Shown here piece by piece: positions 19,015 through 53,967 of a stretch of 64,000 nucleotides of DNA. The stretch lies in NCBI GenBank assembly GCA_028292665.1, contig JAQGLW010000004.1:1-64000 (forward strand), read 5' to 3'. The position numbers and the translations under genes were made by a program. The notes beneath the pieces are model-generated. The model did no database searches. It was not told where the DNA came from and saw only the letters and a program-made list of their open reading frames with translations. This DNA is from Herminiimonas sp. (GTDB taxonomy: Bacteria; Pseudomonadota; Gammaproteobacteria; Burkholderiales; Burkholderiaceae_D). Each line of letters starts with the position of its first letter. Positions within the stretch are counted from its first letter, which is position 1.

Positions 19015-19479
19015 ATGCAGAACGTTTCTCTCCGCCCGACCCGCCACATGTTATTCCGCGCGGCAGCGCGCGGCTTTACCTTGATAGAAATCATGGTAGT
19101 GGTGGTGATCATGGGAATTCTGGCGGCACTGATCGTTCCCAAATTGATGGGACGTACCGACGATGCGCGGATCATCGCCGCCAAGCAGGATATCTCGACC
19201 TTGATGCAAGGGCTGAAACTATACAAGCTCGATAACCAGCGTTATCCTACGACCGAGCAGGGTTTGCAGGCATTGGTTGCCAAACCGACCGCAGGCCCTG
19301 CCGCCAACGGCTGGAAAACCGGCGGCTATATCGACAAGCTGCCGAAAGATCCGTGGGGCAATCCTTATCAATATCTGTCACCCGGCATCAAGGGCGAGGT
19401 CGATGTGTTCTCGCTGGGTGCGGATGGACAGCCTGGGGGCACCGGCAACGATGCCGATATCGGTTCGTGGGAATTGTAA
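19015..19479 (+). CDS. gspG: Type II secretion major pseudopilin GspG
   Basis: The main subunit of the periplasmic pseudopilus that pushes cargo through the secretin. It has a prepilin leader ending in ARG, cleaved before [19 protein letters not shown], then the GspG-specific calcium loop near the C-terminus ([16 protein letters not shown] and [17 protein letters not shown]). It is 154 residues long. It is the first gene of the twelve-gene gsp operon. Confidence 0.97.
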
Positions 19480-19991
19480 TTACGCATTTTTTCGCTGGTC
19501 CGGACCGGACCCGTCCACGCGCGCAGCACCGGCTTCCATCGCGCGGCTTCACGTTGCTTGAGTTGCTGGTAGTGATGGTGATTGCAGGAATCATGCTTGG
19601 TGTGGTTTCATTCAATGCAATGCCGAGCGAGCGTCAGGTTTTGCAAAACGATGCGCAGCGGATTGCGTTGTTGTTGCAACTGGCGCGCGACGAAGCGATT
19701 GTGCGCAACCGCCCGATTGCGTTCGAAGCGGAATCGGACCGTTATCGTTTCCTTCAGCGCGAAGAAAATACCTGGCAAATCCTTACCCAGGATGAGCTGT
19801 TGCGCGAGCGGGAATTCAAGCGGTCTCCGGTATTGCTTTCGATCAGTCCGCCGCAGGCCGGCGAAGCCGTCCCGTTGCGCATCGTCTTCGGTCGCGAACC
19901 GGTCGACAAGCCCTTTGTCCTGACGCTGTCGATCGGCGACGCGCATGTCGCCGTCCGTGCCGACGGTATCGGACATTTCGTGGTCGAATGA
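19467..19991 (+). CDS. gspH: Type II secretion minor pseudopilin GspH
   Basis: Minor pseudopilin with a leader ending in SRG before [20 protein letters not shown] and the GspH-type beta domain ([18 protein letters not shown]). No ATG exists near the leader; the GTG at 19467, overlapping the end of gspG, gives a 26-residue leader and 174 residues in total. The start is therefore uncertain and probably depends on translational coupling with gspG. Confidence 0.85.
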
Positions 19992-19992
19992 C

Positions 19993-20397
19993 ATGCGTAC
20001 CGATCGTCGCCGGGCCAACCATCGTGATAAACGCCGCAGCGCGGGCTTCACCCTGCTCGAAGTATTGGTGGCGCTGGTGATAGTCGGCACTGCATTGGGC
20101 GCCAGCCTGCGTGCGGTTGGCAGCCTGACGCAAAACAGCAGCGATTTGCGCGCATCGATGATGGCGACCTGGTCGGCCGAAAACCGGCTCACGCAAATTC
20201 GTCTGGCGCGGGAATGGCCGGCGCTCGGCCAACGCAGGTTCGACTGCACGCAGGGAGAACTGCAACTGGTATGTGAAGAAAATGTGTTTGCAACGCCGAA
20301 TCCGTCTTTCCGCCGCGTCGAGGTCAGCGTGTTCGATACGAAGAGTGCCGAACGCCAAATCATCAAGCTGGCCCAGGTGGTGCCGAATGCGCAATAA
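19993..20397 (+). CDS. gspI: Type II secretion minor pseudopilin GspI
   Basis: A 134-residue minor pseudopilin of the tip complex (GspI-J-K). The leader ends SAG before FTLLEVLVALVIVGTALGA, and the family segment WSAENRLTQIRL follows. It starts 1 bp after the gspH stop and its 3' end overlaps gspJ. Confidence 0.93.
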   Translation: MRTDRRRANHRDKRRSAGFTLLEVLVALVIVGTALGASLRAVGSLTQNSSDLRASMMATWSAENRLTQIRLAREWPALGQRRFDCTQGELQLVCEENVFATPNPSFRRVEVSVFDTKSAERQIIKLAQVVPNAQ

Positions 20398-21091
20398 ACC
20401 GATCGGGCAAGCCATTGCGCCTGCTGTTTCAATTATGCGGAGGAAAGGCCGGCAACGCGGTTTGACCCTGGTTGAATTGCTGGTCGCCATCAGTGTGCTC
20501 GCATTCGTGGCGGTACTGGGATGGCGCGGGCTCGACGGCATAGTGCGCGCGCGCATTGCGCTGACCGGCGATCTTGAGCAGACGCGCGGGATGCAACTGG
20601 CATTTGCACAACTGCAAAACGATTGCGCGCATCTGGTGACTGCGGCAACCATAGCGAACCGGCCGCCGCTCGCCGCCGAGCAAGGGCGCCTGACGCTGAT
20701 CCGCACGGTGTTTGCCGACAACCAGCCGTCACGGCTGCAAGTGGTGGCCTATCGTGTCAACGGCGGCGTGCTGACGCGCCGCGAATCGGCTGCAACCCGC
20801 GATTTGAATGAACTGGACACCTACTGGCAGGCCGCTTTGAACGATAGCGATATATCCCAGGCGGTCACGCTGCAATCAGGCGTGGCCGCGATGACAATGT
20901 GGCTATGGTCCCCGGAGAGCAACGCCTGGCGCGTCGCCGACACCGTGGCGCAGACCGGTTCGACACCCGGCGCGAACCCTGTTGCAGGTGTGACGGCGCT
21001 TCAACCGACATGGACCGGACTGGAAGTATCGTTGCAGTTGCAGGGCCGCGACGCCGGCATGCTGAAAACATTTTTGCTGGGGGCTGTGTGA
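20387..21091 (+). CDS. gspJ: Type II secretion minor pseudopilin GspJ
   Basis: Tip-complex pseudopilin with leader ending RQRG before LTLVELLVAISVLAFVAV and a large beta-rich domain (LQNDCAHLVTAATI and LTRRESAATRDLNELDTYWQ). ATG 20387 inside the gspI end has an AGGTGG site 7 bp upstream and is preferred (234 residues); ATG 20435 would give a very short 9-residue leader. Confidence 0.92.
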   Translation: MRNKPIGQAIAPAVSIMRRKGRQRGLTLVELLVAISVLAFVAVLGWRGLDGIVRARIALTGDLEQTRGMQLAFAQLQNDCAHLVTAATIANRPPLAAEQGRLTLIRTVFADNQPSRLQVVAYRVNGGVLTRRESAATRDLNELDTYWQAALNDSDISQAVTLQSGVAAMTMWLWSPESNAWRVADTVAQTGSTPGANPVAGVTALQPTWTGLEVSLQLQGRDAGMLKTFLLGAV

Positions 21092-22035
21092 ATATGCGTT
21101 CAGCATTGTCCGGCCGTCAACGCGGCGTCGCCGTGATCACCGCATTATTGTTGACCACGCTGGCCATTACGATCGTCGCGAGCCTGTTCTGGCAACAACA
21201 GGTGCAGGTGCGTTCCATTGAAAATCAGCGGCTGCAGTTGCAGAAACAATGGATCCTGCGCGGTGCGATCGACTGGGCGCGCCTGATCCTGCGCGAAGAT
21301 GCCAAGTATTCGAGCATCGACACGCTGGATGAGCCGTGGTCGGTGCCGCTGTCGGAAACGCGGCTCGATCAATACGTTGAAAACGGACGCGTCGATGCCG
21401 ACGTCGCCGATGCGGCGCTGTCCGGCAGCATCATCGATGCGCAGTCGCGGTACAACCTGACCAACCTGTCACTCAACGGCATCATCAATCCCAAGGAGGT
21501 CTTGGTTTTTCAACGTTTGCTCACCAATGTGCATTTGAATCCTGCATTGGCGCAGGCAACCGCCGATATGATGGCCGCTTCGCAGCCAAGGCAGGATGCG
21601 TCGGCACCGAGCAACAACAATTCGCGCTTCATGGGTCTGGCACAGATGGACGATTTGCTTGCCGTGCCGGGCTTTTCCGCCGAAATACTCGACAAACTGA
21701 GGGAGTTCATCATTTTCCTGCCGCATGCTACCCCGATCAATGTAAATACTGCGCCGGCGGAGGTATTGGCCGCAAGAATTGATACACTCTCGATTTCGGA
21801 TGCGATTTTTCTGGTGGCGAATCGAAAGAGCGCCAGTTTTCGCGACATTGCCGATTTTGCGCAACGCCTGCCGGGAAAATCATTGAGCCTGTCCGGCAAT
21901 GAACTGGCGGTTGCGACCGGTTATTTTCTGGTCAACGGCAAAGTACGCATGAGCCGCGCCGGCCTTGAGGTGCAGGCACTGATCGAACGCAATGGCGCCA
22001 CTAATACCAGGCTGATCTGGGTTCGAGAAAATTAA
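21088..22035 (+). CDS. gspK: Type II secretion minor pseudopilin GspK
   Basis: The largest minor pseudopilin, capping the pseudopilus tip. The leader ends in RQRG before VAVITALLLTTLAITIVASLF. The body has the helix-hairpin-helix part LAVPGFSAEILDKLREF and TPINVNTAPAEVLAARI typical of GspK. The start may be GTG 21088 (sharing GTGA with the gspJ stop) or ATG 21094. It is about 315 residues long. Confidence 0.94.
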   Translation: MNMRSALSGRQRGVAVITALLLTTLAITIVASLFWQQQVQVRSIENQRLQLQKQWILRGAIDWARLILREDAKYSSIDTLDEPWSVPLSETRLDQYVENGRVDADVADAALSGSIIDAQSRYNLTNLSLNGIINPKEVLVFQRLLTNVHLNPALAQATADMMAASQPRQDASAPSNNNSRFMGLAQMDDLLAVPGFSAEILDKLREFIIFLPHATPINVNTAPAEVLAARIDTLSISDAIFLVANRKSASFRDIADFAQRLPGKSLSLSGNELAVATGYFLVNGKVRMSRAGLEVQALIERNGATNTRLIWVREN

Positions 22036-22050
22036 AGGGAGCGGAACACC

Positions 22051-23334
22051 TTGAGTACATTGTATATTCGCTTGCCTTCCAAAGCCGCAGCCGATAGCGC
22101 CGAGCACTGGACTGCATTATCCTGCCCGTTCGCATCGGTATCGAATGGAGGCGCAATCGAACGCGAAGGCAATGCGCCGCTGTCGGACTTGTCCGGCCTG
22201 GTGGCAAAGACGCAACGCATCGTGCTGCTGCTGGCTGCCAGCGATGTCAGCCTGCTGCGCGTGCAGGTGCCGCCGTTATCGGGCGCCAGGCTGAAAGCCG
22301 CATTGCCGAATCTGGTGGAAGAGCAGTTGATCACCGATCCCGCCGAGTGCGTGATGGTCGCGGGCGGTTTGTCGGATGGCTTGCGTACAGTCGCAGTGAT
22401 GCAGCGCGCATGGCTTGAAATCGCAACCAGGACATTCATTCAATTCGGCGCGCGCCACATCGTTGCGTTGCCGGCGCAATTGTGCCTGCCGTATCAACCC
22501 GGCATTGTCGCTGCCGCCGTTACCGAGCAGGGCGCCGATATCGACCTGGCGATACGCTTGTCGGAACACGATGGAATCGGCTTGCCGATCATGCCGGAAC
22601 AGCACGAGAGCGCTGCGCACGAAGCCGTGCATGCGCTGAGCGCGGTGGTGCCGCAAGCGCCGGTCGTGCTGTATGTGCCGCAATCCGCTGTCATGACTTA
22701 TCAGCAGGCGGTCAATCAGGCCGGTGCATCGGAAGAGCGCATCAGCGTCCTTGCCGACAACTGGCCGCGCTGGATTGCCGGCGCCGCCGGCACGTCGGTT
22801 GATTTGATGTCGGGCCTGGGCGCTGCGGCCGGTCCCAAACTGGATTGGCGTCGCTGGCGCTGGCCGCTGGTGCTGGCGGGTGCGGCTTTGGCCGTCAATG
22901 TCGCGGCCATCAATATCGATTGGCTGCGCATGAAGAGCGAAGCCGATTCCCTGCATGCGGCGATGACGCAAATTTACAAATCGGCTTATCCGAAAGAACC
23001 GGTGATTATCGATCCGCTGGTGCAAATGCGGCAAAAAATCGCTGCCGCAAAACGCGATTCAGGGCAGGTTGCACCGGACGATTTCACGGCGCTTGTCGCG
23101 GCCTTCGGCGAAGCGTGGACCGGCGTCGTGCAAGGGTCGGCGGCGCGCAAGGCGCCGGTGCCCGGCATTGCGGCAATTGAATATCGCGAACGTAGTCTGT
23201 TCGTGCGATTGAAACCCGATGCCCCGGCGCCGACCGACCAGCTGAAGGCGGCGCTGGCGGGCCGCGGCCTGTCGCTTACGCCGGCGCCTGCGCAATCGGG
23301 AGCGATCGTCTGGCAAATCAGGAGCACCAAATGA
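22051..23334 (+). CDS. gspL: Type II secretion assembly platform protein GspL
   Basis: A bitopic inner-membrane protein of 427 residues. The cytoplasmic actin-like N-domain (about 1-265) would bind GspE. A single helix lies near residues 273-292 (WPLVLAGAALAVNVAAINI), followed by a periplasmic ferredoxin-like domain. The TTG start at 22051 is preceded by GGGAGCGG. It overlaps gspM by 4 bp (ATGA). Confidence 0.93.
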   Translation: MSTLYIRLPSKAAADSAEHWTALSCPFASVSNGGAIEREGNAPLSDLSGLVAKTQRIVLLLAASDVSLLRVQVPPLSGARLKAALPNLVEEQLITDPAECVMVAGGLSDGLRTVAVMQRAWLEIATRTFIQFGARHIVALPAQLCLPYQPGIVAAAVTEQGADIDLAIRLSEHDGIGLPIMPEQHESAAHEAVHALSAVVPQAPVVLYVPQSAVMTYQQAVNQAGASEERISVLADNWPRWIAGAAGTSVDLMSGLGAAAGPKLDWRRWRWPLVLAGAALAVNVAAINIDWLRMKSEADSLHAAMTQIYKSAYPKEPVIIDPLVQMRQKIAAAKRDSGQVAPDDFTALVAAFGEAWTGVVQGSAARKAPVPGIAAIEYRERSLFVRLKPDAPAPTDQLKAALAGRGLSLTPAPAQSGAIVWQIRSTK

Positions 23335-23843
23335 ACCCGACCGAAACAATGAACCGATTGGCGCAATCACTGTCCGAATTCTGGGCCGCGCGCAATGCGC
23401 GTGAACGTAATCTGCTCGCAGCCGCGGCAGCGGTGGTGGCGCTGGGATTGGTTTACGCATTGCTGATCGGTCCGGCTTCAAGCGGACGCGATCAATTGAA
23501 CAGGAGTTTGCCGGTGCTGCGCCAGCAGGTCGCGCAGTTGCAGAACTTGTCGAAAGAAGCTGCAGGCCTTTCCACAAAGACGGCGCCGTCCGTTGCGCCG
23601 ATCTCCAGGGAAAATATCGAAGCCGCATTGACGCGCAAAGGGTTGAAGCCGCAAAACGTCGCGCTGACCGGCGACATTGCAAAAGTGCAATTATCCTCGG
23701 CATCATTTGCCGGCATCCTCGATTGGCTCGATGACATGCAAAAAACTTCACTGGTTTCGGTGGTCGATGCCAATATTGTTGCGCTAGCTCAACCCGACAT
23801 GGTCAATGCGACTTTAACGTTGCGTCAGCAGAAGAGTGAATAA
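23331..23843 (+). CDS. gspM: Type II secretion assembly platform protein GspM
   Basis: A 170-residue bitopic protein: short cytoplasmic part with ARNARERNLL, one transmembrane helix at about 25-42 (LLAAAAAVVALGLVYALLIG) and a periplasmic ferredoxin-like domain (VALTGDIAKVQLSSASFAG, LDWLDDMQK). It stabilises GspL. It is coupled to gspL by an ATGA overlap. Confidence 0.92.
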   Translation: MNPTETMNRLAQSLSEFWAARNARERNLLAAAAAVVALGLVYALLIGPASSGRDQLNRSLPVLRQQVAQLQNLSKEAAGLSTKTAPSVAPISRENIEAALTRKGLKPQNVALTGDIAKVQLSSASFAGILDWLDDMQKTSLVSVVDANIVALAQPDMVNATLTLRQQKSE

Positions 23844-23942
23844 GGTGATCGTCAAAGCGCATGCATGTTTCTCCGGCCGGTCCGGTGTGGATGCATTGCC
23901 GCATTTGAGCCGGAACAGGCAAGCGGGTAAAAAGGGCGGCAC

Positions 23943-24716
23943 GTGCTGCGCCTCGTGATATGGTTAGCGGCAGGAATTGCCAGTATCGTCATCACGGTGC
24001 TGGCGTTTTTGCCGGCAAGCTGGATGTCGTCGGTACTGGAGACGCAAACAGCGGGGCGTTTGACGCTTGGGGATACGCAAGGCACGTTATGGAACGGTTC
24101 CGCCTTTATCGGCGGCGCGCCGAGCGGCAGGGATCCTGTGACACCGCTGCTGCCGGGGCGTTTCTCATGGCGGCTGTCGCCGATGGTGTTGTTGGGACAG
24201 GTCGATGCGGAACTGGAAAATGCGGAGGCATTGTCGCAACCGATCAGGATAACCGGCAGCTGGCATCAATGGCAGGTGAATCCGGCAGGGATTTCATTGC
24301 CGGCAGAACGGCTTGCCGGCCTGGGTGCGCCGTTGAATACGATACAGCCGTCCGGCCGGATGCGATTGTCATGGAATCCGCTGCAATTGATGCGGCAGGA
24401 CGACAAAATCGAAGTGACCGGAACAATGAATCTGGAAATGACCGACATCGCATCGCGTCTGTCGCCGGTCAAGCCGCTGGGTGCGTACAATCTGGCATTC
24501 GACTGGCGCGGCCAACAGGCTCAGCTGACGCTCACGACAGTCAACGGCCCGATGCTGTTGAATGGTTCCGGCGTGTTCGCGAATGGACGTTTGCAATTTT
24601 CGGGGAAGGCGGAAGCCGAGACGGGGCAAGAAGAGAGGCTGGCGAATTTACTTAATTTGCTGGGACAACGCCGCAGACAAGGCGGTAAAGATGTTATTGC
24701 GCTAGAGTTCAAATGA
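23943..24716 (+). CDS. gspN: Type II secretion protein GspN
   Basis: A 257-residue protein with an N-terminal membrane helix (LRLVIWLAAGIASIVITVLA) and a beta-rich periplasmic domain beginning LTLGDTQGTLWNGSAF, the GspN signature. It is accessory and not present in all type II systems. The GTG start has AAGGGCGG upstream. The 99 bp before it hold no gene. The end overlaps the longest reading of gspD. Confidence 0.88.
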   Translation: MLRLVIWLAAGIASIVITVLAFLPASWMSSVLETQTAGRLTLGDTQGTLWNGSAFIGGAPSGRDPVTPLLPGRFSWRLSPMVLLGQVDAELENAEALSQPIRITGSWHQWQVNPAGISLPAERLAGLGAPLNTIQPSGRMRLSWNPLQLMRQDDKIEVTGTMNLEMTDIASRLSPVKPLGAYNLAFDWRGQQAQLTLTTVNGPMLLNGSGVFANGRLQFSGKAEAETGQEERLANLLNLLGQRRRQGGKDVIALEFK

Positions 24717-24745
24717 AAAAAAATAATCGCTTATTGGTCCGGCGT

Positions 24746-24812
24746 GGCGAAGTCCCGGCTTCGCCGCGCTCCGTTTTCTCCTTCTCCTTGTACGAGAAGG
24801 TTGGGGTGAGAG
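24746..24812. repeat. REP-like double-hairpin element at the gspN-gspD junction
   Basis: Two stem-loops lie side by side: a 7-bp perfect stem GGCGAAG/CTTCGCC (24746-24765) and a 6-bp stem CTTCTC/GAGAAG (24781-24799), the latter followed by GTTGGGGTGAG. The second half resembles the widespread intergenic element of pattern TCTCC-loop-GGAGA-GGTTGGGGTGAG. Read in frame it only adds a poorly conserved N-terminal extension to GspD, so it is best seen as an inserted intergenic repeat. Only one copy is visible in this window. Confidence 0.5.
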
Positions 24813-24823
24813 AATGCGGCTTC

Positions 24824-27049
24824 ATGTTCAATCGTGCCGCATCGGCGGCAGGCACATTCAAGAAACCGGCAGGCTGGCGCAACTGGGGCGCGGCCATGGT
24901 GCTGCTGTGTGCAGCGGCTTCGATGCAGCCGTCGCATGCGCAGGATCCGGCGGCGAATCAGGCCACCCTCAATTTCGTCGGCGCCGATATCGAATCGGTG
25001 GTCAAGGCGATCGGCCATTACACGAATACGACTTTCATCATCGATCCGCGCGTCAAAGGCACGATCAATCTCATATCCGAAAAGCCGGTTACCAAGGCGC
25101 AGGCATTTCAGCTGTTGACCTCGGCATTGCGGCTGCAGGGTTATGCCGTGGTGGCCGGCGAGGGCTTTACCAAGGTCGTGCCGGAGGCCGATGCCAAGCT
25201 GCAGGCCGGCCCGATTCAGGGCGGAACCATCCGCGGCGATCAGATTGCGACACAGATTTTCCGCCTGAATTACGAATCCGCCGCCAATCTGGTGCCGGTA
25301 TTGCGGCCGCTGATTTCGCCCAACAATACGATCAACGCCAATCCCGGCAACAACACCGTCGTCATCACCGATTATGCGGACAACCTGAGGCGTCTCGGCA
25401 GAATCATCGCGGCGCTGGACGGCCCGGCGACCAGCGAACTCGAGGTGCTGCCGATTCGTTATGCGATGGCCTCGGATATTGCAGTGATGGTCAATCGTCT
25501 GCTGGAGCCGGGCGCCGCCGCGGCTCCCGGCGGCGACGCGGGCCGCGTCAACCTGCTGGCCGATTCGCGCACCAATTCCGTCATCGTTCGAGCGCCATCC
25601 ATTGCACGCGCCAATCTGGCGAAATCGCTGATTGCGAAACTCGATCAGCCGACCGCGATGCCGGGCAATGTGCATGTGATCTATCTGAAAAATGCGGAAG
25701 CGACCAGGCTCGCACAAACCTTGCGGGCAGTAGTAGCGTCCGATGCATCGGCAACCACTACCGGCACGACGGCGGCGTCTGCTCCGCAGCAACCGCAGCA
25801 ACCGCAGTCCGGCGCGGCAACGACGCAAACCGGCACCGGCATGCAGGCGCCGCCGTCCTCGCCCGCTCCGGCGCAGGGACCGCTGCCGACGGGAGGCGCC
25901 GGCGGATTCATTCAGGCCGATCCGGCGACCAATACGCTGATCATCACGGCCAGCGAAGCGGTCTATCGCAATTTGCGCACAGTCGTCGACCAGCTCGATG
26001 CGCGCCGCGCGCAGGTATATGTCGAGTCGCTGATTGTCGAAGTATCGGCCACGCGCGCAGCCGAGTTCGGAATCCAGTGGGCCGGTGCGACAGGCGACAG
26101 CACCAGCAACTACAGGCTCGGATCCGTGACCGGATTCACTTCCACGGCCGGCGGCAATGCGGCCGGCGACAACCTGATTTCACAGGCGGCTGCAAGACTG
26201 ACGGCGCCCGGCACTCCGCTGCCGCCGGGCAACGGTCTGACGCTCGGCCTGTTCCGCCAAGTCGGAGGCCAGCTAGGACTCGGAGCGATAGCGCGCGCGC
26301 TGGAATCCGACGACAATGCCAATATCCTGTCGATGCCGAACCTGATCACGCTCGATAACGAAGAAGCGAAAATCATCGTTGGACAAAACGTGCCTTTCGT
26401 CACCGGACAGTACACGACGGCGGCTTCGGGCGGCACGGCGGGCGTCAATCCGTTCCAGACGATCGAGCGTCGCGATATCGGTTTATCGCTGCGCGTGCGG
26501 CCGCAGATTTCCGAAGGCGGCACGGTCAAGATGGCTATTTACCAGGAAACATCGGCGATTCAGACAACGACTGCGTCCGGCATCATTACCAGCAAGCGCT
26601 CGATCGACACCAATGTATTGGTCGACGACGGCCAGATCATCGTGCTCGGCGGATTGATCGAAGACAATATGCATGACAGCATCGAAAAAGTGCCCGGCCT
26701 GGGCGATATTCCCGTCGTCGGCAATCTGTTCAAGTATCAAAAGCGCAATCGCGGTAAAACCAACCTGATGGTGTTCTTGCGGCCGACGGTAATAAGAAGC
26801 AATGAACAGAGCGTCAATGTCGCAGGCGACCGCTATAACTATATCCGCAATACGGAAGTTACCGGACAGCCTGAGCGGACGATCGCATTGCCGAATATGG
26901 GAGCGCCGCTGTTGCCGCAACTGCAGGATGGCCGGATGGTCGATGGGCCTTTGCTCAATATCGATCAAGGCGGCAGGGGCGCCGGGCAAAATCCTGCCGC
27001 ACCGCCGCCTTCTGCACCCCCTCCTTCTTCACCACCAATTATCAATTAG
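24824..27049 (+). CDS. gspD: Type II secretion outer-membrane secretin GspD
   Basis: The outer-membrane channel. From ATG 24824 it has a signal peptide (cleavage after SHA), the N0 domain (LNFVGADIESVVKAIG), N1-N3 repeats with a Gln/Pro/Thr-rich insertion in N3, and the secretin core (VESLIVEVSATRAAEFGIQW to VPGLGDIPVVGNLFKYQ and KTNLMVFLRPTVI). The C-terminus is Pro-rich. An in-frame ATG at 24713 (ATGA with gspN) would add 37 residues encoded by a hairpin repeat and is less likely. The protein has 741 residues from the chosen start. No pilotin is in the window. Confidence 0.95.
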   Translation: MFNRAASAAGTFKKPAGWRNWGAAMVLLCAAASMQPSHAQDPAANQATLNFVGADIESVVKAIGHYTNTTFIIDPRVKGTINLISEKPVTKAQAFQLLTSALRLQGYAVVAGEGFTKVVPEADAKLQAGPIQGGTIRGDQIATQIFRLNYESAANLVPVLRPLISPNNTINANPGNNTVVITDYADNLRRLGRIIAALDGPATSELEVLPIRYAMASDIAVMVNRLLEPGAAAAPGGDAGRVNLLADSRTNSVIVRAPSIARANLAKSLIAKLDQPTAMPGNVHVIYLKNAEATRLAQTLRAVVASDASATTTGTTAASAPQQPQQPQSGAATTQTGTGMQAPPSSPAPAQGPLPTGGAGGFIQADPATNTLIITASEAVYRNLRTVVDQLDARRAQVYVESLIVEVSATRAAEFGIQWAGATGDSTSNYRLGSVTGFTSTAGGNAAGDNLISQAAARLTAPGTPLPPGNGLTLGLFRQVGGQLGLGAIARALESDDNANILSMPNLITLDNEEAKIIVGQNVPFVTGQYTTAASGGTAGVNPFQTIERRDIGLSLRVRPQISEGGTVKMAIYQETSAIQTTTASGIITSKRSIDTNVLVDDGQIIVLGGLIEDNMHDSIEKVPGLGDIPVVGNLFKYQKRNRGKTNLMVFLRPTVIRSNEQSVNVAGDRYNYIRNTEVTGQPERTIALPNMGAPLLPQLQDGRMVDGPLLNIDQGGRGAGQNPAAPPPSAPPPSSPPIIN

Positions 27050-27058
27050 TGATCAGCA

Positions 27059-28501
27059 ATGAGTAATGCAACAATGGATGGCCGTCTTTTACCTTATGCA
27101 TTTGCCCGCGATTTCGCGCTGCTTGCCCATCGCAACGGCGCCGCGAACGGCGGGGCGGTCGAGGTGTGGGTATCGGACGCAACGGCGCCGACAGCCATTG
27201 CCGAAGTAAGCCGCCGGTTCGGCCGCGTCAAACTGAAATCGATGTCGCGCGAAGCGCTCGAATCGGCGATCGCCAAGGCCTATGCCGGCTCCGGCGGCGA
27301 CGCGGCGCAAGTGATCGATGAATACGAATCCGATCTCGACCTGGCGAAACTGATGCTCGACATGCCGGCGGTCGAGGATCTGCTGGAATCGGCCGACGAT
27401 GCGCCGGTGATCAGGATGATCAATGCGCTGCTGACGCAGGCGCTGCGCGAAGGCGCTTCCGACATCCACATCGAACCGTTCGAGCAGGTGTCGGTGGTGC
27501 GCTTCCGCATCGACGGCACCTTGCGCGATGTCGTGCGGCCGAAGAAGGCGATCCACGCATCGCTGGTTTCGCGCATCAAGATCATGTCGCAGCTCGACAT
27601 CGCCGAAAAGCGTTTGCCTCAGGACGGCCGCATCACCCTGCGCGTCGGCGGCAAGCCGGTCGACGTGCGGGTTTCCACGCTGCCGACCGGACATGGCGAG
27701 CGCGCGGTATTGCGTTTGCTCGACAAGGAAGCGGGCCGGCTCGATCTGCAGCATCTGGGCATGAGCGGCGACGCGCTGCCGCAGTTCGACAAGCTGATTG
27801 GGCAACCGCACGGCATCGTACTGGTCACCGGGCCGACCGGTTCGGGCAAGACCACCACGCTGTACGCGGCGCTGTCGCGGCTGAATGCGAGCACCACCAA
27901 TATCCTGACGGTCGAAGATCCGATCGAATACGAAGTCGCAGGCGTCGGCCAGACCCAGGTCAATCCGCGCATCGACATGACGTTCGCCAAGGCGTTGCGC
28001 GCGATTTTGCGGCAGGATCCGGACGTCATCATGATCGGCGAGATTCGCGATCTGGAAACCGCACAGATCGCGGTGCAGGCATCGCTGACCGGCCATCTGG
28101 TGCTGGCCACCTTGCACACCAACGATTCCGCGGCTGCGGTCACGCGTCTGCTCGACATGGGAATCGAGCCGTTCCTGCTGTCGTCATCGCTGCTCGGCGT
28201 CGTCGCACAGCGGCTGGTGCGAAAATTATGTCCGCATTGCAAACGGCATGACGGCCAGCTGTGGCATGCGGTCGGCTGCGACAAATGCGGCCTTACCGGT
28301 TATCAGGGCCGGGTCGGCGTCTACGAATTATTGCTGACCACCGATCAGATCCGTGCCCAGATTCATGATCGGGCATCGGAAGCGGATATCCGCGCAACTG
28401 CCCAGCAGGATGGCATGCGCACCATGCGCGAAGACGGCGAGCGCTGGCTGGCGGACGGCACGACGACGCAGGCGGAACTGTTGCGTGTCACGAAAGATTA
28501 A
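27059..28501 (+). CDS. gspE: Type II secretion ATPase GspE
   Basis: Cytoplasmic hexameric ATPase of 480 residues that powers pseudopilus assembly. It has the N-terminal GspL-binding domain, Walker [16 protein letters not shown], the Asp box and Walker B ([14 protein letters not shown]), the His box ([13 protein letters not shown]), and a four-cysteine zinc module (CPHC ... CDKC) before [12 protein letters not shown]. It starts 10 bp after gspD. Confidence 0.97.
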
Positions 28502-28532
28502 TCGCCGATGAATACATTTTTAAGGTCGCCCC

Positions 28533-29753
28533 ATGCCGGCATTCCGCTATGAAGCCGTCGATGCGGTCGGCGCCACCAAGAAAGGCGTAGTCAACGCCGA
28601 CAGCGCCCGCGCTGCGCGCTCCGATTTGCGCACGCAAGGGCTGGTGCCGATTGCCGTCGATGCAATTACCACGCAGCTCGATGCATCCGGGCAAACCAGG
28701 AGCCACGGACTCGGCGGCCGTTTGTCGACTACGGAGCTGGCGCTGTTCACGCGCCAGCTGGCAAGCCTGCTCGAAGCGAGCCTGCCGCTCGAACAGGCGT
28801 TTACCGCATTGCTGGAACAGGCCGAGCGCACTTATGTGCGCGACCTGATCGCGTCGATTCGCTCGGAGGTAATGGGCGGCGCCTCGCTGTCGGATGCGCT
28901 GTCGCGGCATCCGCGCGATTTCACCGACATCTACCGGGCGCTGGTGGCATCGGGCGAGCAGATCGGCCAGTTGTCGCGGGTGCTGTCGCGCCTGTCCGAC
29001 TATATCGAACGGCGCAATTCGCTGGTGCAAAAAGTCAAGCTTGCATTCACCTACCCGGCCATCGTCACCGTGGTCGCGTTCGCGATCGTGATTTTTCTGC
29101 TGACCTACGTGGTGCCGCAGATCGTGTCGGTGTTTGCCAATACCAAGCAGAAGCTGCCGTTCCTGACGGTGATGATGCTGGCGATATCAGACTTCGTGCG
29201 GAATTACGGCTGGATGGTGGCGATCGCCGTCATCGGCTTGTTTTTCGCATGGCGTGCCGCGTTGAAAGATCCGTCGATCAAGATGCGCTGGCATACCTGG
29301 TTATTGAATGCGCCGCTGTACGGCAAATTCGAACGCAGCCTCAACACCGCCCGCTTTGCCAGCACGCTGGCGATCACGACCGGTTCCGGCGTGCCGATTC
29401 TGCGTGCGTTGCAAACCAGCCGCGACACCTTGTCCAATGTTGCGATGCGCGAACAGGTTGAAGACGCCGCGAACAGCGTGCGCGAGGGCGTGGGACTGGC
29501 GCGCGCGCTGTCGGCGCATAAACATTTTCCGCCGATGCTGATTCACATGATTCGCGCCGGCGAAGTGACCGGCGAATTGCCGGCGATGCTGGACCGCGCC
29601 GCCAATGCGCAGGAACAGGATCTGGAGCGGCGTGCGATGACGATTGCCGGATTGCTGGAGCCTGCGCTGATCCTGGCGATGGGTGTGGTCGTGTTGCTGA
29701 TCGTGCTGGCGGTGCTGATGCCGATCATCGAGATCAACCAGTTGGTGCGCTGA
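28533..29753 (+). CDS. gspF: Type II secretion inner-membrane protein GspF
   Basis: A 406-residue polytopic platform protein with two homologous cytoplasmic helical domains (about 70-190 and 270-390) and three transmembrane helices (near 170, 220 and 375). Hallmarks are LALFTRQLASLLEASLPLEQA and GSGVPILRALQTS. It is separated from gspE by 31 bp. Confidence 0.96.
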   Translation: MPAFRYEAVDAVGATKKGVVNADSARAARSDLRTQGLVPIAVDAITTQLDASGQTRSHGLGGRLSTTELALFTRQLASLLEASLPLEQAFTALLEQAERTYVRDLIASIRSEVMGGASLSDALSRHPRDFTDIYRALVASGEQIGQLSRVLSRLSDYIERRNSLVQKVKLAFTYPAIVTVVAFAIVIFLLTYVVPQIVSVFANTKQKLPFLTVMMLAISDFVRNYGWMVAIAVIGLFFAWRAALKDPSIKMRWHTWLLNAPLYGKFERSLNTARFASTLAITTGSGVPILRALQTSRDTLSNVAMREQVEDAANSVREGVGLARALSAHKHFPPMLIHMIRAGEVTGELPAMLDRAANAQEQDLERRAMTIAGLLEPALILAMGVVVLLIVLAVLMPIIEINQLVR

Positions 29754-29781
29754 TGCATGTGCATGGATTAAAGGGAATGCA

Positions 29782-30633
29782 ATGAAACGCTGGCCTCTAG
29801 TTGCGAGTTTCGTATTGTTCATCGCACTGTGCGTATCCGTTGCGTACTGGACGATGCAATTGTTCAAGCCGCCGCTGCGTGCGGTCGCGGCGCCGCCGCC
29901 CGCGGTTCAGGCAGCCCCCGGACTGGATGCGGCCGCGGGTTTGTTCGGTGGCCGTTCGACGATTGCCGTCGCCACCAATTTCCAGCTGAAAGGCGTAATC
30001 GCTTCAGGTACTGCGTCCGATAGCATCGCCATCCTGGCGACCGACGGCAAGCCGGCGCAGGCGGTCAGGGCCAATGCCGAAGTGATCCCCGGCGTCACGG
30101 TCAAGGAAGTGCATCCGCGCTATGTGCTGCTGTCGGACGGCGGCGTATCGAAGCGGGTCGAGTTGCCTGAAGATGCGAAAGGGCAGACGAGAGTGGATTT
30201 GCCGCCCAATGCGCCGGGCAGGACCGCTGCGGTAGCACCGGCCGCGGTGCCCGGCCCGCCGCCTAGTGCTCGGGGTATGGCTGCTCCATCACCCGCGGGA
30301 AGCCCGCCCGGCACGACCGTACCGCCGGGTACAGTAACACCGCCACCGCCGGGTATCCGGCCAGGTGCGACTGCAGCTCCGCAACCGGCTCTGCAACCGA
30401 CGACTCCACAACCGACGACTCCACAACCGACGGCTCCACAACCGACGGCTCCACAACCGACAGCTCCACAACCGACAGCTCCACAACCGACAGCTCCGCA
30501 ACCGACAGCTCCGCAACCGACAGCTCCGCAACCGATAGCTCCGCAACCGATAGCTCCGCAACCGATAGCTCCGCAACCGATAGCTCCGCAACCGGCTCCG
30601 GCGTCCCCCGCAATGCCGCCGCAACAGCGTTAA
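29782..30633 (+). CDS. gspC: Type II secretion protein GspC with a Pro-rich repeat tail
   Basis: Inner-membrane clamp between platform and secretin. It has an N-terminal helix (about residues 5-25), a proline-rich linker, and the homology region (about 55-130: TNFQLKGVIASGTASDSIAIL, VTVKEVHPRYVLLSDGGVSKRVEL) that contacts GspD. There is no PDZ domain. Instead, the last 150 residues are Pro/Ala/Thr-rich and end in thirteen five-residue repeats of the PQPTA/PQPIA type. gspC is usually first in gsp operons; here it is last, 28 bp after gspF. Confidence 0.9.
   Translation: MKRWPLVASFVLFIALCVSVAYWTMQLFKPPLRAVAAPPPAVQAAPGLDAAAGLFGGRSTIAVATNFQLKGVIASGTASDSIAILATDGKPAQAVRANAEVIPGVTVKEVHPRYVLLSDGGVSKRVELPEDAKGQTRVDLPPNAPGRTAAVAPAAVPGPPPSARGMAAPSPAGSPPGTTVPPGTVTPPPPGIRPGATAAPQPALQPTTPQPTTPQPTAPQPTAPQPTAPQPTAPQPTAPQPTAPQPTAPQPIAPQPIAPQPIAPQPIAPQPAPASPAMPPQQR
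30391..30585 (+). repeat. 15-bp coding minisatellite (13 units) in gspC
   Basis: Thirteen in-frame tandem 15-bp units encode PQPTT, PQPTA and then PQPIA. The unit variants are grouped in order and each step is a few bases at most: one CTG-start unit, one CCA..ACG-ACT, two CCA..ACG-GCT, three CCA..ACA-GCT, two CCG..ACA-GCT and four CCG..ATA-GCT. A degenerate unit follows to 30600. The length is expected to vary between strains by slippage in steps that keep the frame. Confidence 0.95.
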
Positions 30634-49602: not shown

Positions 49603-50517
49603 ATGATCGATTCAGTTGCGCCTTTTGCCAAACGCGCTGCCCTGATCAGCGTCGTCGTCGCCTGTATGATGACGTCCGCTTCCAATGCCGCTGCCGGCGC
49701 TGCGCAGCAGGAAGATTGGTGCAAGCGCCTGACCGTCCGTCTGCCCGGCATAACGGCGGCGGCCTGTCAAAACAGCGCACTGATGCCGACCGGCGCCGTG
49801 TCGCTCAAAGGTTTTCCGATTCTGGCGCGCCGGATTCCGGCGGCAAAAAACGGGCGCGATGACAGCAAGCCGATTCGCGTTTTACTGCTTGGCGGGATTC
49901 ATGGCGACGAATTGACGGCCGCAGCCATTGTGTTCCGATGGCTGCAATTCATGCAGGCGCCGGCGGCCCAGCAGTTCGAATGGAATGTCGTCCCGGTCGT
50001 CAATCCGGACGGCCTGTTGTCGCCCAGGCCGAAACGCGTCAATGCCAACGGCGTCGATCTGAACCGCAATTTTCCGACACCGGGCTGGCAACAGGATGCG
50101 CCTCGTTACTGGGTCAAGGCGACCCATAGCGATCCACGGCGCTTTCCTGGCAAGGCGGCGCTTTCCGAACCCGAGACGCGATGGCTGAATGAAGAAATGG
50201 ATCGGTTTCAACCGCAGGTCATCATTTCGGTGCATGCGCCTTTCGGCATTCTTGATTTCGACGGCCCGGCTCCCGCGCCTACACGCTTCGGCCGTCTGCT
50301 GTTCAATGGCGTCGGCGTCTATCCGGGTTCGCTTGGCAACTATAGCGGCAGGCACAAGAACATCCCTGTCATTACGATAGAGTTGCCTAATGCGCTAGCG
50401 ATGCCGCCAGATGCGGAGGTGCAGCGCATCTGGCAGGATATGCTGACATGGATACGACGCAATGTGCCCAAGCAGGACATGGCAATGAATAAGCGGCCGG
50501 TATCCGCAGCCAGATAA
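49603..50517 (+). CDS. Exported M14-family zinc carboxypeptidase/amidase (MpaA-like)
   Basis: A 304-residue protein with signal peptide (cleavage near NAAAG). The zinc ligands are HGDE in LLGGIHGDELTAAAI and the later His in IISVHAPFGILD. The substrate Arg is in NANGVDLNRNFPT, and the catalytic Glu in VITIELPNA. The short form with NPDGLLS resembles murein peptide amidase A and DUF2817-like M14 enzymes, so a cell-wall peptide substrate is inferred. It is upstream of the protease module but separated by 182 bp. Confidence 0.87.
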   Translation: MIDSVAPFAKRAALISVVVACMMTSASNAAAGAAQQEDWCKRLTVRLPGITAAACQNSALMPTGAVSLKGFPILARRIPAAKNGRDDSKPIRVLLLGGIHGDELTAAAIVFRWLQFMQAPAAQQFEWNVVPVVNPDGLLSPRPKRVNANGVDLNRNFPTPGWQQDAPRYWVKATHSDPRRFPGKAALSEPETRWLNEEMDRFQPQVIISVHAPFGILDFDGPAPAPTRFGRLLFNGVGVYPGSLGNYSGRHKNIPVITIELPNALAMPPDAEVQRIWQDMLTWIRRNVPKQDMAMNKRPVSAAR

Positions 50518-50699: not shown

Positions 50700-51077
50700 A
50701 TGCGTAATTTTATTAACCGGACAGCAACGGTTGCGGTAAAGACAGCGGTGATTGTTTTTGCAACCGCCTGTCAATCGGCGCCTGCCGACAACGCTTCTCA
50801 CGAGCCTGTTTTGCAGCCGGTCGCCGGCACAGTGGCCTCGCGGCAATTGATCATCAAGTTCAAACCCGGCACTATCGCGTGCGACCCGGCCGGCATTGCG
50901 CGTTTGTCTGCCGCCGCTCGCGTGCCGCTTGAATTTGTCCGGACGATGTCGGGCAACGCCTGCGTCGTGAAGCAGTTGGCGGATCCCGCAGTCGGCTTTC
51001 CACAGGGAGAAAAAATGTTGAAGCAGCATCCTGCGATCGAATGGATCGAGCCGGATGAGGTAATGAAAACCTCGTGA
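50700..51077 (+). CDS. Stand-alone I9/subtilisin-propeptide-like lipoprotein
   Basis: A 125-residue protein with a signal peptide ending in a lipobox-like FATAC (Cys24) and one domain of about 85 residues homologous to the propeptide of the next gene. Matching blocks: RQLIIKFK with SRLIVKH, RTMSGNACVV with RPMSGNAHVV, and AIEWIEPDEVMKTS with VEFAEPDRIMQVT. I9 domains are intramolecular chaperones and tight inhibitors of S8 proteases. As a separate lipoprotein it may hold the protease inactive in the periplasm. Its stop overlaps an upstream GTG of the protease frame. No family name is claimed beyond I9-like. Confidence 0.75.
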   Translation: MRNFINRTATVAVKTAVIVFATACQSAPADNASHEPVLQPVAGTVASRQLIIKFKPGTIACDPAGIARLSAAARVPLEFVRTMSGNACVVKQLADPAVGFPQGEKMLKQHPAIEWIEPDEVMKTS

Positions 51078-51130
51078 CACGTTTGCGTATCGGCAATGTG
51101 GCGAAGACAGCTGTGAAATGTGAAACAGGG

Positions 51131-53281
51131 ATGAAAATAAAAATGAAAGTTCGGCACGCGCTGCTTGGCATAACCGCAGCAGCTGCCTTGATTTCCGCAG
51201 TGGCCAATGGCGCACCGGCCGGTTCGACCGGATTCTCGGGGCTCAAGAATGGAATGCCGTTATCCGTTGCAAGCGCGCCCGACGAAGAAATGGTGTCGCG
51301 CCTGATCGTCAAGCATCGCACCCAGCGCAGCGACAAATTAAACGCCACGCTGCGCGCCTTCGACGGTAGAGGACTGGCCGGAGCGGAAAACCTGACGATG
51401 ACGGTCATGCGTCCGATGTCCGGCAACGCGCATGTGGTCAATCTGAACCAGGCGGTCAAGTTGTCCGAGGCGCAGGCTATCGCGGCGCAATTGATGCACG
51501 ACAGCGATGTGGAATTCGCGGAGCCGGACCGCATCATGCAGGTCACTACAACCCGAACGCCCACCGATCCCGACTATTCTTCTCTTCAATGGCATTATTT
51601 CCCGCCTGACAGCGTCAACAAGGGCGGCGCCAACCTGCCGAACGCATGGTACATGACCATCGGCGATCCCTCGGTCAAGGTAGCGGTGCTGGATACCGGT
51701 TACCGCCAGCATGCAGACCTTGCCACGGTATTGCCAGGATACGATTTCATTTCCAACAGCACGGTGGCCAATGATGGCAACGGCAGGGACGCCGATCCGC
51801 AGGACCCGGGCGATTTATGCAGCACCGATGCCAATCCCAAATCAAGCTGGCATGGAACGCATGTGGCCGGCACCATTGCTGCACAGATGGATAACGGCAC
51901 CGGTGGAACAGGCATTGCGCCGCTGGCTAAAATTCTGCCGGTACGCGTGATCGGCAAGTGCGGCGGTTTGACTTCCGACATAGCGGACGGTATGCGGTGG
52001 GCTGCAGGTATTCATGTTGCCGGCGTGCCCGACAACACCACCCCCGCGCAGGTGCTTAACATGAGCCTGGGCGCTACCGGCGCATGTTCCAGCACGTTTC
52101 AGTCTGCCGTCAATGACGTCGTCGGCGCGGGGAAAGTCATTGTGGTGGCGGCGGGGAATGGCAGCTCTCCTGCCTTAAGCCAGCCGGCAAACTGCACCGG
52201 CGTCATCGCGGTCACCGCCCATGCGATCGATGGCGACAATGCCAACTATGCCAATATCGGCGTCGAAACCGCCATCAGCGCTCCCGGCGGCGGCTGCGGC
52301 ACAATGTCTTCCGGATGCAATGCGCTCGTTTCCGCCAACGGGCCCGGCGTCTATTCACTGTCGAATACGGGTACCAATGCTCCCGTCGCGGATGGTTACA
52401 GCAAGCTGCAGGGAACCAGCATGGCGGCGCCGCATGTGTCCGGCGTCGTGGCGCTGATGCTGTCATTGAATTCGTCGTTGACGCTGGCGCAGATCAAATC
52501 GTACCTGCAATCATCGGCGCGTCCGCATCCTGCCGGAACAACCTGTACGCAAAGCCGTTTCACCGGGCTGTGCGGCGAAGGCTTGCTGGATGCGGAAGGG
52601 GCATTAATTAAAGTCAACGAACTGGCGCCTATCGTCAGCCTGACGAATGCCTATCAGGTCGTCGCGCCGAATGCGGTGGTTCCGCTCTCGAGCGTCGATA
52701 CCGTGGCTCCGGGTACGGGCCGTTCCATCAACACTTATGCGTGGTCGCAGCAAACCGGCGCCAATGTCGGCGCAATCGGCGGCGCCAATACGGCGAATGC
52801 CACGTTCAGCGCGCCCGTCAGCGGCATCTATTCTTTCAAGCTGACGGTAACCGACAGTAACGGAAAGATCGGCGCAGCCACGGCAACGGTCCGGGTCAAC
52901 GCCGCACCCGTGCTTTCTGCGGTAGCGGACCAGACCGTGATAGCAGGCCAGGCGCTCAATTTCACGGTCGGCGCCACCGATCCGGAAGGCGACGCGGTTA
53001 CTTACAGCGCGGATTCGCTGCCTGCTTCTGCGACGCTGAATCAAACGACAGGCGCATTCAACTGGCCGAGTGCGGCCCCGGCCGGCAGTTATGTCCTGAC
53101 TTATCATGCGAGCGATACGGGCGGCGTCAACAGCGCGACCGGTACGGTAAGAATCACGGTGACCGCGCCGGTATCATCCGGCGGAGGCGGCGGCAGCCTG
53201 GACGGCGAGTCGCTGCTTGGGCTGGCGTTGCTGGCGACATGCATGCGCATGCGCCGTGCATTCAAAATCCGGCGTAACTGA
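51131..53281 (+). CDS. S8 subtilisin-like protease with GlyGly-CTERM-like tail
   Basis: A 716-residue exported serine protease: signal peptide (residues 1-30), I9-type propeptide (about 55-140), catalytic domain with Asp188 (VAVLDTG), His241 (HGTHVAG), Asn343 (AAGNGSS) and Ser430 (GTSMAAPH), then a PKD-like and a cadherin/Ig-like domain (about 500-680). The tail is GGGGGSLDGESLLG, a hydrophobic stretch, and an Arg-rich end, as in GlyGly-CTERM proteins. Likely Sec-exported, cut by the next gene's product and secreted by type II secretion. The start may also be ATG 51143 or GTG 51074. Confidence 0.92.
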   Translation: MKIKMKVRHALLGITAAAALISAVANGAPAGSTGFSGLKNGMPLSVASAPDEEMVSRLIVKHRTQRSDKLNATLRAFDGRGLAGAENLTMTVMRPMSGNAHVVNLNQAVKLSEAQAIAAQLMHDSDVEFAEPDRIMQVTTTRTPTDPDYSSLQWHYFPPDSVNKGGANLPNAWYMTIGDPSVKVAVLDTGYRQHADLATVLPGYDFISNSTVANDGNGRDADPQDPGDLCSTDANPKSSWHGTHVAGTIAAQMDNGTGGTGIAPLAKILPVRVIGKCGGLTSDIADGMRWAAGIHVAGVPDNTTPAQVLNMSLGATGACSSTFQSAVNDVVGAGKVIVVAAGNGSSPALSQPANCTGVIAVTAHAIDGDNANYANIGVETAISAPGGGCGTMSSGCNALVSANGPGVYSLSNTGTNAPVADGYSKLQGTSMAAPHVSGVVALMLSLNSSLTLAQIKSYLQSSARPHPAGTTCTQSRFTGLCGEGLLDAEGALIKVNELAPIVSLTNAYQVVAPNAVVPLSSVDTVAPGTGRSINTYAWSQQTGANVGAIGGANTANATFSAPVSGIYSFKLTVTDSNGKIGAATATVRVNAAPVLSAVADQTVIAGQALNFTVGATDPEGDAVTYSADSLPASATLNQTTGAFNWPSAAPAGSYVLTYHASDTGGVNSATGTVRITVTAPVSSGGGGGSLDGESLLGLALLATCMRMRRAFKIRRN

Positions 53282-53283
53282 TC

Positions 53284-53967
53284 TTGGAAGCGCCGCCGCG
53301 ATTATTCCTGCATGACGCCGGGCGGAACAAGTGGCTGTTCTGTCTCGGGGTGTCCTTTTGCGCGATTGTCTTCACATATTGGCCGCACGGCCTGGCGCAA
53401 TTTCGCTACGATCGGGCTGCCGTGCTGTCGGGCGGCGGCTGGCGTGTACTGACTGCGCATCTGGTGCATCTCAACACGATGCATTTGCTTTTCAACTTGA
53501 TCGGCCTGTTACTGCTTTGCGAGTTGCTGTGGAATGACATGCCCTTGTTGCATGCGTTCGGCATGCTGGGCGCAACCGCGATCGGGATCAGCGTGCTGCT
53601 GTTTTGTTTTCATCCCGAACTGGCCTGGTATGCCGGCTTGTCGGGTTCGCTGCACGGGTTGTGGTCGGGTTGCGCGCTGGCCGGCTGGCAGCCTGTCCCG
53701 GCGCGGATCAATGGACGGTTCGCGGCGCCGCCGTCAAAATGGCAACGGCCCCGGCTGAGTTGGCCGATGCCGCGCTGGATCGGCGCCGCTGGAATGGCCT
53801 TGCTGGCGATTAAACTGGCGATCGAATTCTGCTACGGGCCTTCGGAGCGAACCGTACGGGCGATCGGCGGTTCGGTCGTGACGATCTCTCATTTGTACGG
53901 TGCGCTGATCGGCATTTGTTATGTGCTGCTGTGGCAAGGCACACAATTGCTGCGCTTCGAAAAATAA
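53284..53967 (+). CDS. rrtA: Rhombosortase (rhomboid-family intramembrane serine protease)
   Basis: A 227-residue polytopic membrane protein. It shows the rhomboid-like HLVHLNTMHLLFNLIGLLLL, the catalytic serine motif GLSGSLHGLW (Ser120) and the catalytic histidine in SHLYGALIG (His203). The extra His after the Ser motif and the small size match rhombosortase, which processes GlyGly-CTERM tails. It starts with TTG 2 bp after the protease stop, so it is coupled to its presumed substrate. A Pro/Arg-rich cytoplasmic loop of about 40 residues splits the helices. Confidence 0.85.
   Translation: MEAPPRLFLHDAGRNKWLFCLGVSFCAIVFTYWPHGLAQFRYDRAAVLSGGGWRVLTAHLVHLNTMHLLFNLIGLLLLCELLWNDMPLLHAFGMLGATAIGISVLLFCFHPELAWYAGLSGSLHGLWSGCALAGWQPVPARINGRFAAPPSKWQRPRLSWPMPRWIGAAGMALLAIKLAIEFCYGPSERTVRAIGGSVVTISHLYGALIGICYVLLWQGTQLLRFEK

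Follow-up and report, generated by a model that had tools for sequence, protein, structure and literature searches.

A propeptide-like predicted lipoprotein recurs beside subtilases with C-terminal sorting tails

Why should a genome encode a stand-alone copy of a subtilisin propeptide next to a subtilisin-family protease that carries a propeptide of its own? The question is raised by three contiguous genes in a 64,000-nucleotide stretch of Herminiimonas sp. (contig JAQGLW010000004.1, positions 1 to 64,000; hereafter the window): a predicted lipoprotein resembling the I9 family of subtilisin propeptides, an S8 serine protease with its own propeptide and a GlyGly-CTERM-like tail, and a rhombosortase (Table 1). 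An earlier note on this DNA had pointed out the trio, and all three genes lie where it placed them. We find that the lipoprotein is a conserved and accessory neighbour of the protease-rhombosortase pair, that its relatives accompany proteases with other sorting tails, and that several such pairs lie within type II secretion system (T2SS) gene clusters. We favour, with real but limited confidence, the reading that the lipoprotein is a membrane-anchored propeptide mimic which inhibits the protease before export.

Results

The lipoprotein resembles a subtilisin propeptide

The signal peptide of the lipoprotein ends in a lipobox (...VFATAC24). No match over the cut-off to the Pfam Inhibitor_I9 model (PF05922) was found in the lipoprotein or anywhere in its own genome, the propeptide of the adjacent protease being likewise unmatched, and the NCBIfam models also put no name on the lipoprotein. 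A profile of nine lipoprotein homologues finds the propeptide of the adjacent protease at E 8.7e-8, and plain BLASTP between the two gives E 0.002. Other hits were taken as noise, namely a match to Lir1 (light-regulated protein; E 0.009, under the cut-off) and two phmmer matches in the PDB (E 0.8 and 2, the second to proteinase K). In the AlphaFold model of the lipoprotein the secondary structure runs strand-helix-strand-strand-helix-strand, with a predicted local distance difference test score (pLDDT) of 91-98 over residues 51-120, a mean of 77.5 and a predicted template-modelling score of 0.60. The top Foldseek match of this model is pro-subtilisin E (E 3.6e-3), and subtilisin propeptides rank first in the VIA structure comparison, including two bound to subtilisin: 2z58_B (Z 8.6, root-mean-square deviation (rmsd) 1.9, 65 residues aligned) and 1spb_P (Z 7.9, rmsd 2.5, 70 aligned). 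By homology and by predicted fold, then, the lipoprotein is propeptide-like, as the earlier note had supposed.

The likeness extends to candidate contact residues. In the 1spb match, residues 47-125 of the model lie on prosegment residues 7-77, with the last residue, 125, on 77; counted back from these aligned ends, and thus by spacing rather than residue by residue, E117 and D119 fall on Glu69 and Asp71 of the BPN' propeptide, which are described as capping helices of the protease (PMC6993865). E117 is invariant in all nine family lipoproteins. Among 29 stand-alone proteins (one further member, L190, is not alignable at this point), the distance from the D119 column to the C-terminus is exactly six residues in 17 and between five and seven in 21. 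The lipobox cysteine is invariant in the 19 stand-alone proteins aligned there, none of 29 aligned proteins has Asp at position +2, and lipobox-like strings occur in 25 of the 26 loci of a wider survey described below, L190 being the exception. Cys61 and Cys88, invariant in the nine family members and not in the wider set, could possibly form a disulfide.

The protease, its tail and the rhombosortase

The longest open reading frame (ORF) of the protease, 51074-53281, opens at a GTG four bases inside the lipoprotein gene; the ATG at 51131 is the more likely start, because it is favoured by a comparison by eye with the start of the homologue in genome G015. The catalytic domain (Peptidase_S8, E 1.9e-47) is followed by PKD and Ig-like domains and, at the C-terminus, by the tail GGGGGSLDGESLLGLALLATCMRMRRAFKIRRN, which has the tripartite form of a Gly/Ser motif, a hydrophobic stretch and a basic end. 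The GlyGly-CTERM model TIGR03501 (cut-off 15.5) matches neither the protease nor its isolated tail, and finds nothing above the cut-off in the window's own genome; one genome search with it says little, as no control genome gave a match either. On ten tails this model places L108 over the cut-off (19.4) and L019 under it (13.4), with no match listed for the others. A profile (A3) of 12 such tails, the window's included, gives the window's protease 67.3 bits and the next protein in its genome 11.4; as far as this profile sees, the sorting system looks dedicated to one target.

The third gene, called a rhombosortase in the earlier note, scores 110.9 bits with TIGR03902 (cut-off 84), which supports that name. 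Because TIGR03902 at E 0.001 matches all 14 control genomes, none of them over the cut-off, only matches over the cut-off were used. A second, weaker match to this model lies elsewhere in the same genome (G000, contig C109:2513-2920; 48.3 bits). The pairing of rhombosortase and tail in the window is read from the adjacency of their genes.

Conservation of the trio in the family

Among 195 genomes of the family, 11 have a match to the lipoprotein, nine of them strong (E 2.7e-15 or better) with the window counted in; the two weak matches (G180, G045), in whose stretches there is no I9, S8 or rhombosortase gene, were dropped. The trio is unbroken in eight of the nine, and the ninth, G024, is split by contig ends, with the lipoprotein gene and the start of the S8 gene on contig C4 and the end of the S8 gene and the rhombosortase gene on C73. 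All nine loci have metK upstream, and eight have ahcY downstream, the other reaching a contig end. Named carriers of the trio include Keguizhuia sedimenti and Lacisediminimonas profundi, and the order metK-lipoprotein-S8-rhombosortase-ahcY, lacking the M14 carboxypeptidase gene of the window, also appears in L062, a metagenome-assembled genome (MAG) from the Nitrosomonadales. Since the arrangement recurs in several genera, it is more than chance. The earlier note had let its proposal hang on the conservation of the trio in relatives, and the search for this adjacency finds it conserved.

Approached from the other side, the surroundings of 22 family rhombosortase genes (21 over the cut-off and that of G028, at 82 bits) show an S8 gene adjoining 17 of them and a stand-alone I9 gene at 11 of those 17. 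The six S8-rhombosortase loci without a stand-alone I9 gene belong to genus g4 (G003, G046, G121, G134, G166) and to G049. The protease-rhombosortase pair is therefore the core of the locus, and the lipoprotein is an accessory that can be absent.

Other tails and other sortases beyond the family

Profile searches of the order (399 genomes), the class (369) and the phylum (299), which partly overlap, together with a scan of named genomes, led to 30 stand-alone I9 genes that were read in context (the window's own, 26 more and a further three). Nine other matches (L068, L069, L072-L074, L077, L078, L080 and L081) are S8 propeptides rather than stand-alone genes, and L082 is neither. An S8 gene adjoins 28 of the 30. 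Another class contributes the I9-like lipoprotein genes L242 5375-5827 and L243 5354-5845, and L244, of the same genus, has an adjacent S8 gene.

The C-terminus of the S8 protein is readable in 26 loci (not in L015 or L244), and 25 of these end in a sorting-type tail: 18 GlyGly-like, five JDVT-like, one IPTL and one unnamed (L146). The JDVT-CTERM model is over its cut-off in L057, L086 and L144 and under it in L092 (24.1 vs 27); it did not report L159, whose tail was called by eye. The IPTL-CTERM model is over its cut-off in L190. Of the 18 GlyGly loci, 16 have a rhombosortase gene within the stretch (L095, at a contig end, and L143 being the other two; that of L108 is just under the cut-off, at 81.5), and MrtJ is over its cut-off in four of the five JDVT loci and not found in L086. 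Lipoprotein relatives thus stand beside S8-JDVT-MrtJ loci in L057, L092, L144 and L159; L057 and L061 are Nitrospira/Nitrospirae MAGs, whose origin is taken as binned. Apart from L143 and L146, and from L145, where two S8 genes enclose it, every locus with an S8 neighbour has the stand-alone gene on the upstream side. Because stand-alone I9 proteins also occur beside JDVT-CTERM/MrtJ proteases and one IPTL-CTERM protease, they are not specific to rhombosortase. The earlier note had made the lipoprotein part of a rhombosortase unit; this holds insofar as it is a conserved neighbour, but its relatives reach beyond that system, and five genomes of one genus lack it.

Two of these loci stand somewhat apart. 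In L143 an ordinary rhomboid (PF01694, 5467-6207) lies beside the S8-GlyGly/I9 pair and no rhombosortase was found in the stretch; VesB of Vibrio cholerae is reportedly cut by two rhomboids (PMC11389362). In L190 (3623-7290) the stand-alone I9 protein, in which no lipobox was found, lies beside the S8 protease with the IPTL-CTERM tail.

Stand-alone I9 genes and tailed proteases in a control sample

For a comparison of tailed and untailed proteases, S8 genes were collected from 274 genomes of the class with the catalytic domain as the sole criterion, because sampling anchored on S8 avoids choosing loci by the I9 profile. This gave 74 places besides the window's own, in 71 stretches, with 75 S8 ORFs, of which 70 were counted; three cut at the C-terminus (L150, L167, L205) and the two halves of a split gene (L158) were dropped, none of them with an adjacent stand-alone I9 gene and L167 with a rhombosortase gene. 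Under an automatic tail rule, a stand-alone I9 gene lies beside eight of 24 tailed and none of 46 untailed S8 ORFs (Fisher p 7.8e-5), two of the eight, both in L145, having a single I9 gene in common. Once two evident false tails (L215, L221) are reclassified, the counts become 8/22 against 0/48 (p 3.4e-5), a change that can only strengthen the association because neither has a stand-alone I9 gene. Collapsed to taxonomic families with the two tails corrected, the counts are 5/14 tailed against 0/30 untailed (p 0.0018). The samples are related to one another, and the I9 profile behind these counts is not independent of the loci: of the seven stand-alone genes recovered, six had been used to train it and L190 had not. 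Its parent profile, A2, was built from different loci, most of them next to tailed S8 genes; distant stand-alone genes beside untailed S8 genes could escape detection. The single untailed protease with a stand-alone I9 neighbour, that of L061, was not part of this sample.

Origin of the stand-alone proteins

In a tree of 86 I9 domains (30 stand-alone, 56 propeptides), limited by a short alignment of 76 columns that was built with a profile of stand-alone proteins, the labels stand-alone and propeptide require seven changes by parsimony against a mean of 25 and a minimum of 18 after shuffling. The nearest tip is another stand-alone protein for 28 of the 30. Because they mostly group together, apart from the neighbouring propeptides, the stand-alone proteins look like old partners rather than recent copies of the propeptides next door.

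Pairs within type II secretion clusters

The earlier note had located a gsp machine at 19-30 kb, and a gsp cluster does lie there, some 20 kb upstream of the trio. Elsewhere the association is closer: the I9-S8 pair sits between gspF and gspG in L086, L092, L145, L148 and L151 (in L145 together with other genes and the rhombosortase gene) and follows gspF in L146, where gspG was not seen in the stretch. In the remaining 20 of the 26 wider loci covered by this count, which leaves out L242-L244, the stretch read showed none of gspD, E, F and G. The six pairs in gsp clusters are neighbourhood evidence for T2SS export, making the link stronger than the earlier note had it, and the window's protease is presumed to be exported by that route.

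Three side observations concern these clusters. L145 (4029-9464) has one I9 lipoprotein gene flanked by genes for two GlyGly-tailed S8 proteases, with the rhombosortase gene adjoining gspG. In L153 (3159-4736), of genus g288, a tailed S8 gene adjoins gspE/gspF and no stand-alone I9 gene accompanies it; L146, from that genus too, has a stand-alone I9 gene. The GspC-like protein of the window (29782-30633) carries a long Pro/Gln/Thr-rich repeat at its C-terminal end, PQPTAPQPTAPQ.

Layout of the window

On the plus strand the gene order is metK, M14 carboxypeptidase, lipoprotein, S8 protease, rhombosortase and ahcY (Table 1). A promoter and terminator scan gave no more than shuffled sequence did. 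The M14 carboxypeptidase gene lies beside the lipoprotein gene in eight of the nine family loci, is absent from L019 and L062, and may possibly have a role within the same module as the trio.

Table 1. Features of the window considered here
Feature	Position	Strand	Remarks
Type II secretion cluster gspG-H-I-J-K-L-M-N-D-E-F-C	19015..30633	+	Pfam for G, D, E, F, C; H-N assigned by eye
metK	48372-49535	+	assigned by eye
M14 carboxypeptidase with signal peptide, MpaA-like	49603..50517	+	under the equivalog cut-off; kept beside the trio in family relatives
Stand-alone I9-like (subtilisin-propeptide-like) lipoprotein, 125 aa	50700..51077	+	lipobox Cys24; Cys61/Cys88; E117-P-D119 followed by the last six residues
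S8 serine protease, 716 aa from ATG 51131	51131..53281	+	signal peptide, I9-like propeptide, catalytic, PKD and Ig-like domains, GlyGly-type tail
Propeptide of the S8 protease	51284..51541	+	homologous to the lipoprotein (profile and BLASTP matches, see text)
GlyGly-CTERM-like tail	53180..53278	+	GGGGGS, hydrophobic stretch, basic end; below TIGR03501 cut-off
Rhombosortase, 227 aa from TTG 53284, start uncertain	53284..53967	+	GLSGSLHG and SHLYG motifs; TIGR03902
ahcY	54100-55542	+	assigned by eye

Discussion

The fold, the candidate contact residues and the recurring neighbourhood suggest a course of events in which the lipoprotein would act as a safety catch. Lipoprotein and protease would both take the Sec route across the inner membrane; the lipoprotein would then be acylated and, because it has no Asp at +2, probably held at the outer membrane, and the protease would fold on its own propeptide. 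The later steps are modelled on the precedent of V. cholerae VesB, for which cleavage by rhombosortase at the GlyGly motif, conjugation of the C-terminus to a glycerophosphoethanolamine-containing group, transport by the T2SS and surface localisation are described (PMC6219818): here, too, the rhombosortase would cut the GlyGly tail and probably join a lipid-containing group to it, and the T2SS would carry the protease to the cell surface. Should a protease molecule lose its own propeptide too early, the lipoprotein could dock through its E-x-D and C-terminal face and occupy the active site, blocking it in trans in the periplasm or at the membrane. This inhibition is what we infer, rather than observe, from homology, models and neighbourhood. 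SUB1-ProM, a stand-alone propeptide-like protein that is encoded beside subtilase genes and is described as a potent inhibitor of SUB1 (PMC6993865), provides a precedent for trans inhibition by such a protein beside its protease. The earlier note had the protease released from the cell at the end of this path, which is probably wrong: a large fraction of VesB is reported to stay on the cell surface (PMC6219818), on which ground we reject release as the likely end point and expect that the window's protease is probably anchored there.

Several observations count against an inhibitory role. The lipoprotein is not essential to the pathway, since the protease has its own propeptide and one genus does without the lipoprotein: in all five g4 genomes the S8 gene directly follows metK, with no similar ORF of at least 60 aa between them. 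Of the tailed S8 ORFs in the control sample, 16 of 24 have no stand-alone I9 gene; conversely, L242 and L243 carry the lipoprotein gene without an adjacent S8 gene, and the S8 protein beside the stand-alone I9 gene of L061 has no tail. Stand-alone proteins are on average barely closer to their cognate propeptides (27.3% identity, n=28) than to non-cognate ones (24.6%, n=1652), and therefore no pair-specific match is visible. The structural argument has soft spots as well, in that the AlphaFold alignment is thin (nine sequences), residues 121-125, the supposed active-site part, have a pLDDT of 63, Foldseek gives no match at E 0.001 or better, and unrelated folds score close behind the propeptides (NapD, Z 7.8, rmsd 5.3). 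E117 and D119 are lost in some wider members, for example L108 and L146, and eight of the 29 stand-alone proteins have longer ends, 12-22 residues past the D119 column. Finally, fold and contacts of this kind would also be required of a chaperone.

This last point leads to the main rival, which we consider unlikely and yet the most serious, namely that the lipoprotein is a membrane-bound foldase or escort which, like the lipase foldases (Lif) or CpaB, helps the protease to fold and to reach the T2SS. Propeptides of mesophilic bacterial prosubtilases are described as both chaperones and inhibitors (PMC10580911), some T2SS substrates are known to have a dedicated, membrane-anchored chaperone encoded next to them (PMC4713064), and the six I9-S8 pairs in gsp clusters would suit an escort. 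However, the protease has retained a propeptide of its own that should take care of folding, and the five g4 genomes manage an S8 protease and a rhombosortase without the lipoprotein. A lipoprotein exposed on the surface might instead limit, tune or complex the mature anchored protease, as is proposed for PrcB in dentilisin. The surface location of most VesB would fit, as would the report that PrcB, a lipoprotein from the operon of the subtilisin-family protease PrtP, interacts with PrtP and is required for its expression (PMC8167434); but nothing in this analysis places the lipoprotein on the surface, and PrcB, likened here by description only, is described in the same source as without homologues outside oral treponemes. 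We regard such a surface role as improbable. Less probable still is that the lipoprotein is a leftover propeptide copy without a role: it shares fold and sequence family with the adjacent propeptide and is missing from some close relatives, but conservation makes this unlikely, as the ORF has stayed intact in many taxonomic families, with a lipobox in every member aligned, and the grouping of the stand-alone copies on the tree makes them look old.

How does the trio compare with known systems? For GlyGly-CTERM/rhombosortase, systems with a single target tend to be encoded by neighbouring genes (Haft and Varghese, 2011; PMC3237569), and the window fits, with target and rhombosortase adjacent, one strong tail target in its genome and a T2SS present; it differs from the VesB/RssP case (PMC6219818) in the added I9 lipoprotein, in an S8 substrate that is not VesB and in a tail below the TIGR03501 cut-off. 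JDVT-CTERM/MrtJ is a two-gene neighbourhood (Haft, 2024, as summarised in PMC11980579), to which the lipoprotein relatives beside S8-JDVT-MrtJ loci would add a part, whereas the window uses a rhombosortase. The stand-alone I9 inhibitors named in PMC6993865 (SUB1-ProM, TgMIC5, Pleurotus peptidase A inhibitor 1, yeast peptidase B inhibitor and Arabidopsis propeptide-like inhibitor 1) are likewise small independent gene products with a propeptide fold, SUB1-ProM even lying beside its protease, but all are eukaryotic, and that source, so far as available, describes no lipoprotein, C-terminal sorting tag or T2SS link for them. The T2SS chaperones Lif, LipB and CpaB are envelope-anchored helpers encoded beside a T2SS substrate; the class is described as having an N-terminal transmembrane domain and a gene that adjoins the effector and is needed for its secretion, and CpaB as having an SRPBCC-like domain and a role in folding or secretion (PMC4713064), whereas our lipoprotein, also encoded next to its protease, has a lipobox in place of a transmembrane anchor. 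In the dentilisin system of Treponema denticola (PrcB-PrcA-PrtP) a lipoprotein gene lies upstream, in one operon, of an outer-membrane-associated subtilisin-family protease, but PrcB is a 23 kDa protein and the available part of the source mentions no sorting tag or rhombosortase (PMC8167434). The GlyGly-CTERM/rhombosortase system with its adjacency and the MrtJ/JDVT pair were thus known already, and the I9 lipoprotein partner appears to be new: in line with the earlier note, we found no description of it as part of either system in the open-access literature, which was incompletely surveyed, and no precedent for it in the available portions of PMC4257694 and PMC12546842.

A strong protease that passes through the periplasm to the bacterial surface has to be kept from acting in transit. 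The recurrence of the trio, and the other tags in related sets, suggest a little-noticed safety part of protease surface display. We tentatively go one step further, to an idea that is more doubtful than inhibition itself: a lipid-anchored propeptide mimic may be a shared third component of C-terminally sorted, T2SS-exported subtilases, serving at least two and perhaps three unrelated tag and sortase systems (GlyGly/rhombosortase, JDVT/MrtJ and IPTL), which would hold the folded protease silent at the membrane while its tail is processed and then hand it to the T2SS, making inhibition, sorting and secretion one coupled checkpoint. If true, the protease would be silenced by a second, membrane-bound version of its safety cap, dedicated to this task, which would have travelled with it across sorting systems and into the gsp cluster; the stand-alone I9 inhibitors, whose well-characterised representatives named in PMC6993865 are eukaryotic, would be joined by bacterial, lipid-anchored members; the rhombosortase and MrtJ systems would gain a testable third part, and the T2SS a candidate class of substrate partner.

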